A stretch of 64,000 bases of DNA from NCBI RefSeq assembly GCF_026240095.1, contig NZ_JAPIVG010000001.1:248001-312000 (forward strand), read 5' to 3'. This document shows, piece by piece, positions 56,957 to 60,948 of this stretch. A program made the position numbers and the translations under genes. Position 1 is the stretch's first letter. Every line of letters begins with the position of its first letter. The notes below the pieces were generated by a model that was not told the DNA's origin, did no database searches, and saw only the letters and a program-made list of their open reading frames with translations. Source of the stretch: Pedobacter sandarakinus (GTDB lineage: Bacteria; Bacteroidota; Bacteroidia; Sphingobacteriales; Sphingobacteriaceae).

Positions 56957-56968
56957 CATTAATTTTAG

Positions 56969-57039
56969 TTGTCCGACCTGGATTCGAACCAAGACAAACG
57001 GTACCAAAAACCGTTGTACTACCCTTATACTATCGGACA
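56969..57039 (-). tRNA. tRNA-Gln (anticodon TTG)
   Basis: A 71-base leftward tRNA. The acceptor stem is TGTCCGA/TCGGACA with discriminator A; CCA is not encoded. The anticodon stem ACGGT/ACCGT holds the loop TTTTGGT, giving anticodon TTG, which reads CAA/CAG (Gln). The T arm is CTTGG-TTCGAAT-CCAGG. A promoter with the exact consensus -7 lies just upstream. Confidence 0.95.
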
Positions 57040-57057: not shown

Positions 57058-57089
57058 ATCCCCGAAAGGGAATGCAAATGTAGGAAGCT
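57058..57089 (-). promoter_or_regulatory. Promoter for tRNA-Gln
   Basis: Leftward TATCTTTG (57065-57058) is an exact -7 element, with TTG (57089-57087) 21 bases further upstream, inside the allowed 17-23 range. The predicted start near 57050 is about ten bases before the tRNA 5' end. Confidence 0.6.
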
Positions 57090-57263
57090 TATTTTAATTA
57101 TGCAAGAGTGATTTTAAAAATTTTTAAATTTCCTTTTGCACTTCCTTTTCTGCATTGCAAAGATAAAAAAATCATCACGTCGCATGCAACATTTTATTCT
57201 TTTATCCGACCTTTTGAGACCAGAACGACCTAAACCATTTATTATCAAAGACTAAATTTTTTT

Positions 57264-57614
57264 ATGAATTACGCTAGAATTATCACCACAAGCGGCATAT
57301 TATGCTTTTTAGTTAAGTTAATTGCTTTTACGCCAACCTTAAATCAATCGCTCAGTTTTTTGGATGGCAGGAAATGTATTGGGTCGGCCTTTGAAATGCC
57401 GGTGATAAACCAACCAAATGAACCCTTGGTATCTATGAGTCAAAAACTGTTGTACCTGCTTTCTTTTTGTAGGAATACACCGGAAGTTAAAAGATCTACT
57501 TATTATTTCAATCACAAACCATCGAACAATATCTCTGAACAGAATTTCCAGAGATCGATGACTTGCCTGCGCAACTGGAGATGCTTACCGCTACCCTTCA
57601 GCAGAAGAAATTAA
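57264..57614 (+). pseudogene. Decayed partial copy of the DUF2723 gene
   Basis: The first 67 codons of this 116-codon frame align without gaps to the first 67 residues of the intact DUF2723 gene 640 bases downstream; I count 26 identities (for example MNY, CFL, the SF.D step, SAF.M, QP..PL..M.Q). The acidic pair in the first loop (WDCGEF in the intact copy, Asp34/Glu37) has decayed to LDGRKC, losing Glu37. After residue 67 the similarity stops and the frame ends, so the rest of the ~1,000-residue protein is missing. It is best seen as the remnant of a duplicated gene. A short intact gene is less likely. Confidence 0.7.
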
Positions 57615-57900
57615 GCCGAAGTATAGAAACCAGATATAACACTCGCTGTAATCGATTTGCACTATATATAAACAGATCGGCGATCATTTGAGCTATAGAA
57701 TGCCGTAAATAATCTTAACATTAATAATTAAAACATAAAGAGGTAAGGAATATGATTACAAAAAGAAAAATAACGAATAGGTTGCAAACAGTAGCGTTTT
57801 GTTAAATCAATCTAAAAATTTACTCATTTTATCGCCTAGAATAGTTATTTTCGGCAGCATTTTAATGTGAATACCATTTTTAAATATCATTATAAAACCA

Positions 57901-60900
57901 ATGAATTATTCAAAAGTCAATAACATAGCGGGCTGGATCTGCTTTCTAATTGCAACAATAACTTATGTATTAACGTTAGAGCCATCTGCAAGTTTTTGGG
58001 ATTGCGGCGAATTTATCGCATCTGCATTCCGAATGCAAGTTGTTCACCAACCGGGCGCACCCCTATTTTTGATGATACAGCGCTTCTTCTCTGTTTTTGC
58101 GTTAGGTGATATTACAAAAATTGCTTACTGGATGAACGTTGGTTCTGCAGTTTCCAGTGGGGCAACCATCCTCTTTTTATTTTGGACAATTACGGCTTTA
58201 GCAAAGAAGACTTTAGTTAAAGTTGGAGAAGAGCTTTCTACGGCTACCCTAATTACCATTATGGGCGCTGGAGCAGTAGGAGCATTAGCTTATACATTTT
58301 CGGATAGTTTTTGGTTTTCTGCAGTAGAATCTGAGGTGTATGCACAATCTTCCTTATTTACTGCAATTGTGTTCTGGGCAATTCTGAAATGGGAAGCACA
58401 TGCCGATGAGCCAAGGGCAGACAGGTGGTTATTATTTATCGCATACATCATGGGGTTATCTATTGGTATTCACCTATTAAACTTATTAACCATACCAGCG
58501 CTGGCCTTTATTTATTATTTTAGAAGAACAGAAAAAGCTACAACATCTGGCATCTTCAAAACCTTAATTGTTGGCATTTTAATCCTGGCAGTTATCCAAT
58601 ATGGCATTATCCAATACCTGGTTTCATTTGGTGCTTATTTCGACCTTTTCTTTGTAAATACACTGGGGCTTGGATTTGGAACAGGCGTTTTGTTCTTCGC
58701 TATCCTACTTATAGGAGCATTGGTTTGGGGAATTAAATACTCTATCAAACACCAAAAGAAACTGTTGAATTTAGGTTTAATCTCAACTGTACTCATCATT
58801 TTTGGTTATGCTTCTTTCTCTATGATCATTATCCGTGCAAAGGCAGATCCGAACCTAAATAACAGTGCCCCGAAAGATGCTTTCTCGTTTTTAAGCTACC
58901 TTAACCGTGAGCAATATGGCGATAGACCATTGGGCTATGGCCCCAACTATAACTCTGAGCGGGTTGGAATTAAAGACGACGGCAAAACCATCTGGAGGAA
59001 AGGTACAGATAAATACGAACCTGCAGGTACGAAAACCGAATACGAATACAATAACAACACATTATTACCTCGTATGTATAGCGACGATGCGAGACATGCA
59101 GCATTTTACAAAGAGTGGATGCATTTAGATGATGCTAAAAACCCCAATGTAGTTGACAATGTTGGTTTCCTATTTAGTTATCAGATTGGCTACATGTATA
59201 TGCGTTATTTTGGATGGAACTTTATTGGCCGCCAAAATGATGAGCAAGGACAAGGAAGTGGATATGAAGGCGAATGGCTAAGCGGAATTAAAGCTTTCGA
59301 CTCATGGAAAATAGGCGACCAAACACACCTTCCCCCATCTACTGTTGATAATAAAGCATACAATCGTTTCTTTTTCCTACCTTTTATAATTGGGTTGCTT
59401 GGTGCTATCTGGCATTTTCAGCGTAACCAAAAAGATGCAGGAGTAGTTGCGTTATTGTTTTTCTTTACGGGTATTGCCATTGTTTTATATCTAAATCAAA
59501 AACCATTAGAACCTCGTGAGCGAGACTATGCATACGTGGGGTCGTTCTACGCTTTTGCCATTTGGATTGGCTTAGGCGTAGTGGCCATTAGAGAATGGGT
59601 GCTCAAAAAACTAACACCCACAGCGGGTGCAATTGGCGCTACGGTAATTGGCTTGTTGGTAGCACCAGTAATTATGGCCGAGCAAGGTTGGGATGATCAT
59701 GATCGTTCTACTAAATTGGTTGCACATGATATTGCATATGATTATTTACAATCTTGCGCCCCAAATGCCATTTTATTTACTTATGGCGATAACGATACCT
59801 ACCCGCTTTGGTACATTCAGGAGGTAGAAAATGTACGCCCTGATATTAGGATTGTAAATTTAAGCTTATTCGACACAGATTGGTATATCAACGGGCTTAG
59901 ACAAAAACAGAACGAATCTGAACCGCTTCCAATTACAATGGAGCCTGAGCAATACGTTCAGGGCGAAAGAGATGTAATGCCATATGATGATTATAAAATA
60001 AGCGGCAACGTAGAATTAAAAAGCATTGTAGATCTTTTGCTGTCAAATAATGAAAGCGATAAAGTAGCTATGCAAGACGGCACAAAGTCGAACTTTTTAC
60101 CTACAAAAAACTTTAAAATTACTATTGATCCACAGCAAGTACTTGCAACAGGAACGGTATCAGCCGCTAATGCCGCTAAAATTGCTCCGGAAATGGCTTG
60201 GACCTTCAATAAAGGATATGTAACCAAGGGTACTTTAGCCATGCTAGATATTTTGGCACATAACAACTGGAAACGTCCAATTTATTTTGCATCTACAGTA
60301 CCTTCTGAGCAATACAACGGCTTAGACAAATATTTGTATAGCGAAGGTTTAGCCTTACATTTGATGCCCTTAAAGCCAGATACCACTGCTGCAGACGAAA
60401 AAGCAGAGCAATTAAATACTCCAGAATTGTACACTAACGTAATGACGAAGTTTAAGTGGGGCAACATGAAAAATGCTACCTATTTAGACCCACAATCGTC
60501 TGATGATACATTTATCTTCACAAATATTTTCAGTAACCTATCTGGAAGTTTAATTAAAGAAGGTAAAAATGCCGAAGCCAAAAAAGTGATAGATAAGTAT
60601 TACGAAGTAATGCCTCAAAGATTTTTTGGCATTCGTACGGTAGTGGTTAAGTTTTATCTTGCAGAAAACCTCTATAAACTCGGTGAGACGGCAAAGGCAA
60701 ATGAAATTTTGACGCAATGTGGCGACTATATCAATAAGGAATTAATCTTTTTGAGTGATATCTCGGCATCAAAAGGAGCGCTAACAGGTTCGCAAAATAT
60801 TCAAACTGGACTGTACTATCTAGATAGGATGATCAGAGCTAGTAAGATAGCCGGGCAAACCAAAGTAGCTTCCCAACTAGAGAAAACGTTTGCTAGCCTG

Positions 60901-60948
60901 GAAACAAGATTCTCTGGTTACTACACACAACAAGCACCAGGACAATAA
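57901..60948 (+). CDS. DUF2723 multi-pass membrane protein (TMEM260-like/GT-C type)
   Basis: A 1,015-residue inner-membrane protein. The N-terminal ~590 residues hold about ten to twelve membrane helices; the first loop carries FWDCGEFI with Asp34/Glu37, the acidic pattern expected in GT-C glycosyltransferases that use a lipid-linked sugar. The C-terminal ~370 residues are soluble and periplasmic, ending in helical repeats. The eukaryotic relative TMEM260 is an O-mannosyltransferase, so a protein O-glycosylation role is plausible, but bacterial function is not established to me. A decayed partial copy lies upstream and a strong terminator downstream. Confidence 0.88.
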   Translation: MNYSKVNNIAGWICFLIATITYVLTLEPSASFWDCGEFIASAFRMQVVHQPGAPLFLMIQRFFSVFALGDITKIAYWMNVGSAVSSGATILFLFWTITALAKKTLVKVGEELSTATLITIMGAGAVGALAYTFSDSFWFSAVESEVYAQSSLFTAIVFWAILKWEAHADEPRADRWLLFIAYIMGLSIGIHLLNLLTIPALAFIYYFRRTEKATTSGIFKTLIVGILILAVIQYGIIQYLVSFGAYFDLFFVNTLGLGFGTGVLFFAILLIGALVWGIKYSIKHQKKLLNLGLISTVLIIFGYASFSMIIIRAKADPNLNNSAPKDAFSFLSYLNREQYGDRPLGYGPNYNSERVGIKDDGKTIWRKGTDKYEPAGTKTEYEYNNNTLLPRMYSDDARHAAFYKEWMHLDDAKNPNVVDNVGFLFSYQIGYMYMRYFGWNFIGRQNDEQGQGSGYEGEWLSGIKAFDSWKIGDQTHLPPSTVDNKAYNRFFFLPFIIGLLGAIWHFQRNQKDAGVVALLFFFTGIAIVLYLNQKPLEPRERDYAYVGSFYAFAIWIGLGVVAIREWVLKKLTPTAGAIGATVIGLLVAPVIMAEQGWDDHDRSTKLVAHDIAYDYLQSCAPNAILFTYGDNDTYPLWYIQEVENVRPDIRIVNLSLFDTDWYINGLRQKQNESEPLPITMEPEQYVQGERDVMPYDDYKISGNVELKSIVDLLLSNNESDKVAMQDGTKSNFLPTKNFKITIDPQQVLATGTVSAANAAKIAPEMAWTFNKGYVTKGTLAMLDILAHNNWKRPIYFASTVPSEQYNGLDKYLYSEGLALHLMPLKPDTTAADEKAEQLNTPELYTNVMTKFKWGNMKNATYLDPQSSDDTFIFTNIFSNLSGSLIKEGKNAEAKKVIDKYYEVMPQRFFGIRTVVVKFYLAENLYKLGETAKANEILTQCGDYINKELIFLSDISASKGALTGSQNIQTGLYYLDRMIRASKIAGQTKVASQLEKTFASLETRFSGYYTQQAPGQ

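Follow-up and report, generated by a model that had tools for sequence, protein, structure and literature searches.

We find that a 116-residue open reading frame (ORF) in front of a TMEM260-like gene of Pedobacter sandarakinus is what an internal deletion left of a second gene of the same family, a reading to which we assign a probability of about 0.95. The frame (57264-57614) lies in a window of 64,000 nucleotides taken from a 4.09 Mb genome (G000). We refer to the intact gene downstream as B and to the decayed one, whose intact counterparts stand immediately before B in many relatives, as A. A preliminary description, made from the letters alone, rightly spotted the pseudogene; its origin and its extent are corrected here. 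The locus is organized as follows.

56968-57039, minus strand: tRNA-Gln (TTG), the left neighbor of the locus (ARAGORN; Rfam).
57185-57210, plus strand: promoter-like element TGCAAC-N16-CGAC of copy A, shared with 50 of 52 intact A genes.
57264-57479, plus strand: 5' remnant of copy A, approximately its first 72 codons, 53-54% identical to the A of genome G025, with 15 of 33 A-invariant residues changed.
57480-57568, plus strand: deletion junction and weakly alignable, frameshifted 3' sequence of A (DNA alignment; exact junction not resolvable).
57569-57661, plus strand: 3' remnant of copy A, approximately residues 973-1003 of 1008 (tblastn, shuffles and DNA alignment).
57799-57900, plus strand: conserved upstream region of gene B (82-90% identity in closer relatives, 76-82% in others).
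57901-60948, plus strand: gene B, 1015 residues, intact, TMEM260-like (PF11028, DUF2723; Pfam 243 bits, cut-off 24.2).

The likeness between the 116-residue frame and gene B that was first reported, 26 identities over 67 residues in a gap-free alignment, is real (pairwise blastp E = 6e-14). Across 10,000 residue shuffles in the same gap-free register the number of identities never exceeded 13 and the BLOSUM62 score, 128 for the observed pair, never exceeded 11. A whole-genome search with the remnant recovered the genome's own B gene at E = 2.8e-10 and 39% identity. A third own-genome match, L003 (G000:C1:764697-764858), has E = 0.002 with three stops in 55 codons and is probably due to chance.

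Relatives reveal what once stood at this place. Using the A protein of G025 as query against 145 Pedobacter genomes, we obtained one or more matches at E <= 1e-100 in 144 of them and identified an A-type gene, 71-100% identical to the query, in 53; the next full-length match below this group is only 65% identical. Of these 53 genomes, 51 have B immediately after A on a single contig (with B listed in two pieces in G058 and cut by the contig end in G099); in G010 and G021 the A-type and B-type matches fall on different contigs. The A of G021 is partial; it is counted among the 53 and left out of the 52 intact A genes used below. The preliminary description had proposed a decayed tandem paralogue, with two copies formerly present at the locus, and had suggested looking there for an intact second copy in related strains; A immediately upstream of B in 51 of the 145 genomes is that copy. 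Gene B of G058 (G058:C1:4183612-4186627) is listed as two overlapping pieces, so that B may be broken there and A is intact, and a more distant paralogue in another genome (G002:C23:150271-153239) is likewise listed as two pieces.

A and B are paralogues of about 60% identity. In a FastTree phylogeny with 127 proteins and its root on two distant paralogues, all 52 A sequences fall into a single clade (support 0.997) and 25 B sequences into another (0.993); 151 frames had collapsed to 126 distinct proteins, 47 single-type sequences were placed on the tree, and three sequences (L170, L171 and L176) were separated manually because they are distant paralogues. The nearest neighbor of the A clade is L151 (from G135), and the B clade groups with other single genes. 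As judged from this tree, A and B are old paralogues that belong to separate lines. A could have arrived horizontally. Functional specialization of the two, which had been suggested earlier, is plausible because both copies are kept in many species. None of the 53 A-type genomes lists, at E <= 1e-100, a paralogue of 44-49% identity that many other genomes of the genus carry elsewhere; this exclusivity may reflect one gene replacing the other, or only common descent.

The remnant descends from A. Its best match is the A of G025 (53% identity over 72 residues, or 54% over 68 by tblastn), and in 17 of 18 tandem loci the 5' stub obtained a better tblastn E value with A than with B, L047 being the exception, with B slightly ahead. 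Identity to distant A genes goes down to 37% in gapped alignments, overlapping the range for B (about 35-44%). At the DNA level, the A genes of the four nearest genomes are 58-61% identical to the remnant over the stub, and the DNA before it matches A's upstream sequence at 72-86% in the leading matches, many of them at 79-82% over 213 nt. With the segment 57076-57900 as query and three candidates scored per genome, 82 of the 145 genomes gave any match; among the matches listed, these covered A's upstream region and start, or B's upstream region, along with short scattered matches, and a second remnant of the same structure was absent from them. The separation of A and B in the tree, together with the tblastn preference for A, therefore means that the remnant is not a copy of the neighboring gene. 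The phrase under which it was first described, a duplicate upstream of the DUF2723 gene, was right as to paralogy and wrong as to source, as the remnant is an orthologue of A. A partial duplication of B would account for the 26 of 67 shared residues, but it leaves unexplained the better match to A in 17 of 18 loci, the flanking of the remnant by A's own upstream DNA and A's own 3' end, and the presence of A at exactly this place in relatives; we give it practically no chance of being correct.

The 3' end shows how A was broken. Everything after residue 67 had been thought lost, yet approximately 31 residues of A's 3' end are still recognizable by tblastn at 57569-57661, in a frame different from that of the 116-residue ORF. 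A proteins of the 18 tandem loci detected this segment within 57064-57900 at E values of about 5e-6 to 0.02. When the last 120 residues of each of the 52 A proteins were compared with 57465-57798, all 52 matched in that same frame with 22.7-32.7 bits, whereas 300 dinucleotide shuffles never gave more than 25.8 bits; because the scores span this shuffle maximum, the weaker single queries do not rise above the shuffles by themselves. A DNA alignment of the tandem loci, made without L045 and L046 with their long A-B gap, shows no stop codon at the site aligned to A's stop. The stretch 57486-57550 is only 38-46% identical to four near relatives.

What remains of A amounts to about the first 72 and the last 35-65 codons, with some 2.6-2.7 kb missing. 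Since the 3' end is still present, the loss is an internal deletion, and since that end lies in another frame, the ORF's unique C-terminal half consists of the junction followed by A's 3' end read out of frame. In our reading, the ancestral locus carried, beside the tRNA-Gln gene, a tandem of TMEM260-like (GT117-type) membrane glycosyltransferase genes with A ahead of B. The lineage of G000 then lost about 2.6-2.7 kb from the interior of A, from near codon 73 to around codons 945-970. One large deletion is the presumed first event, and several deletions would look alike. The leftover of A then drifted, with catalytic-loop residues replaced, the frame shifted and the stop lost, so that today's ORF runs from A's 5' stub through the junction and on, out of frame, over A's 3' end. 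It would yield no working enzyme, leaving B to continue alone.

Residues that are otherwise held constant have changed freely in the stub. Over 67 codons, the remnant differs at 15 of the 33 positions invariant in the 52 intact A, while each intact A, when left out in turn, differs at 0-1 such positions (mean 0.12, n = 52). At positions invariant across both A and B, 14 of 30 are changed in the remnant, whereas the genome's own B has changed none of 55 B-invariant residues within its first 67. The first loop, FWDCGEF, contributes Trp33, Cys35, Gly36, Glu37 and Phe38 to the 14 changes, with Asp34 kept. First-loop acids of TMEM260-like proteins are predicted to be important for catalysis (PMC11292533). 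Of the acidic pair Asp34 and Glu37 the remnant lacks the second, whose loss was noted earlier; the residue there is Lys. Nonsynonymous divergence (pN) from A has a mean of 0.314 for the remnant and is nowhere below 0.277, whereas the 1326 A-A pairs have a mean of 0.079 and reach 0.168 at most. Because synonymous divergence (pS) from A, at a mean of 0.75, is near saturation, a formal dN/dS is uninformative for the remnant.

Relatives that keep an intact orthologue in this position, together with relaxed constraint, are the marks of a pseudogene; the frame open over 116 codons and the retained Asp34 count against one. The remnant looks dead as a gene, and our verdict is an ordinary pseudogene, possibly with promoter capture. 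Could the 116-residue frame instead encode a genuine small protein, such as a truncated regulator or a partner of B? Its 116 open codons and its well-preserved 5' control region would suit such a role, but 15 of 33 invariant residues are gone, its C-terminal part is A's 3' end read out of frame, and the structure recurs neither among the matches listed for the 145 genus genomes nor in a scan of genome contigs with the ORF as query, which reached close relatives only and did not find the short frame. The preliminary description had named conservation of the short frame in related genomes as the observation that would speak for a real protein; its reading of a decayed tandem paralogue stands, with the corrections given above. 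We consider a functional short protein very improbable and infer that the frame gives no protein product.

A is missing elsewhere in the B clade as well. G008 (L164) and G082 (L053) lie inside it, and each returned a single match in the A search, which is its own B. Four A-bearing genomes join G000 in one group (support 1.0), and G008 branches outside that group (0.84); G082 is grouped with two A-bearing genomes (support 1.0). Placed as they are among A-bearers, these three lineages would most simply have lost A independently, and three is a lower bound, the tree having taken in just 47 single-type sequences. No A remnant was detected within 3-4 kb upstream of B in L053 or L164 (tblastn with five A proteins, E <= 0.05). 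As to whether B evolves faster once A is gone, the lineages differ. The distance of B from the common ancestor is 0.070 against 0.041-0.051 for G000 and 0.034 against 0.010-0.015 for G082; unlike these two, G008 has the shorter distance (0.068 against 0.082-0.111).

One part of A has outlasted its coding sequence. Searching 300 nt of upstream DNA, we found TGCAAC-N16-CGAC upstream of 50 of the 52 intact A, beginning 58-81 nt ahead of the gene and always with a spacing of 16 although 14-18 and a CGTC second box were permitted; in the two A genes without it (L041 and L114) the second box reads TGAC. The element is absent from the 300 nt before 22 of 22 tandem B and before 47 of 47 single-type genes. 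It is intact ahead of the remnant, and L053 and L164, which have lost A cleanly, carry it upstream of B. Of ten named records, all six with A upstream of B have the element, and all four without A lack the element as well. By analogy, its two boxes may be an ECF-type sigma-factor site. A literature search found nothing linking TGCAAC-type or AAC/CGTC promoters to ECF sigma factors in Bacteroidetes.

The region around the element also appears to have changed more slowly than the stub. Among sites conserved in 11 clade relatives, the remnant has changed 10 of 94 upstream (57131-57263) and 27 of 103 at codon positions one and two (Fisher p = 0.006). The same comparison gives 2/22 against 24/91 with all 23 intact loci (p = 0.098), 4/46 against 30/106 for columns at least 90% conserved (p = 0.010) and 22/119 against 35/116 with the 4 nearest loci (p = 0.047). 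With moderate support, these sequence comparisons suggest that A's promoter is still in use, probably for B.

A capture of A's promoter, compatible with the pseudogene reading, would mean that selection has kept the element and that it now drives B through the remnant. The presence of the element in all three genomes of the B clade seen here to lack A argues for this, as do its absence before every tandem B, the slower change upstream and the lack of a terminator-like site on the plus strand between 57040 and 57950. Against it, the p values are uncorrected and vary with the reference set, three genomes are few, the deletions may merely have ended short of the element, B has a conserved upstream region of its own, and the sigma-site identity of the boxes is an analogy. 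We place capture somewhat short of even odds. The broader proposal is that a dedicated element controls A and B as a pair, and that B's need of it has preserved it through three or more losses of A. This is tentative, with the odds against it; if true, it would be a case of one tandem enzyme repeatedly lost and its promoter retained for the surviving partner.

A wide regulon for the element was not found: the host genome holds 2 sites against 0 in the control, the second of them in the middle of L185, inside a predicted frame. A looser pattern gave 19 sites across seven genomes, with 1 to 4 in any one genome, against 5 for a reversed-pattern control; 7 of the 19 lie before A or its remnant, and the 12 others may represent a small excess over the 5. 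Sigma-70-type promoters were no more frequent than expected (3 against 3.7). Within B's own upstream region (57799-57900), a core of approximately 23 nt recurs just before the single-type genes of several other genomes. As for a conserved RNA family before B, Rfam returned the tRNA and one sub-threshold match overlapping it.

These results settle the history of a conserved Pedobacter pair of membrane glycosyltransferase-like genes: about one in three of the genus genomes searched keeps A beside B, and three or more lineages within the pair-bearing clade are without A. Comparing strains that have A with strains that do not is a natural way to ask what role A plays and whether B can fill it. The surviving element before A provides a testable hypothesis of control, and its preservation could be the part of interest to specialists.

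Human TMEM260 belongs to CAZy family GT117. Gene B passes the PF11028 model cut-off, is the sole PF11028 match found in its genome, and has a match (E = 1.5e-9) to human TMEM260, chain 9rql_A, that spans residues 11-209. The enzymatic activity of A and B is predicted, and gene B is a putative O-mannosyltransferase; literature on DUF2723, bacterial TMEM260 and GT117 yielded nothing on what A and B modify in Pedobacter. The 116-residue ORF has no Pfam match at E <= 1, PF11028 included, where about half of the stub, at most, could overlap the model, whose match in B starts at residue 34.

Compared with known systems, then, gene B is a member of the TMEM260-like (DUF2723) family, and the remnant derives from a paralogue of B, differing from the family in being without nearly all of the catalytic module. 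Bacterial pseudogenes formed by internal deletion are a general, known kind. With them the remnant shares intact orthologues, decayed ends, a lost frame and collinear flanks, and nothing categorical sets it apart; both of its ends, and the element upstream, are still recognizable.
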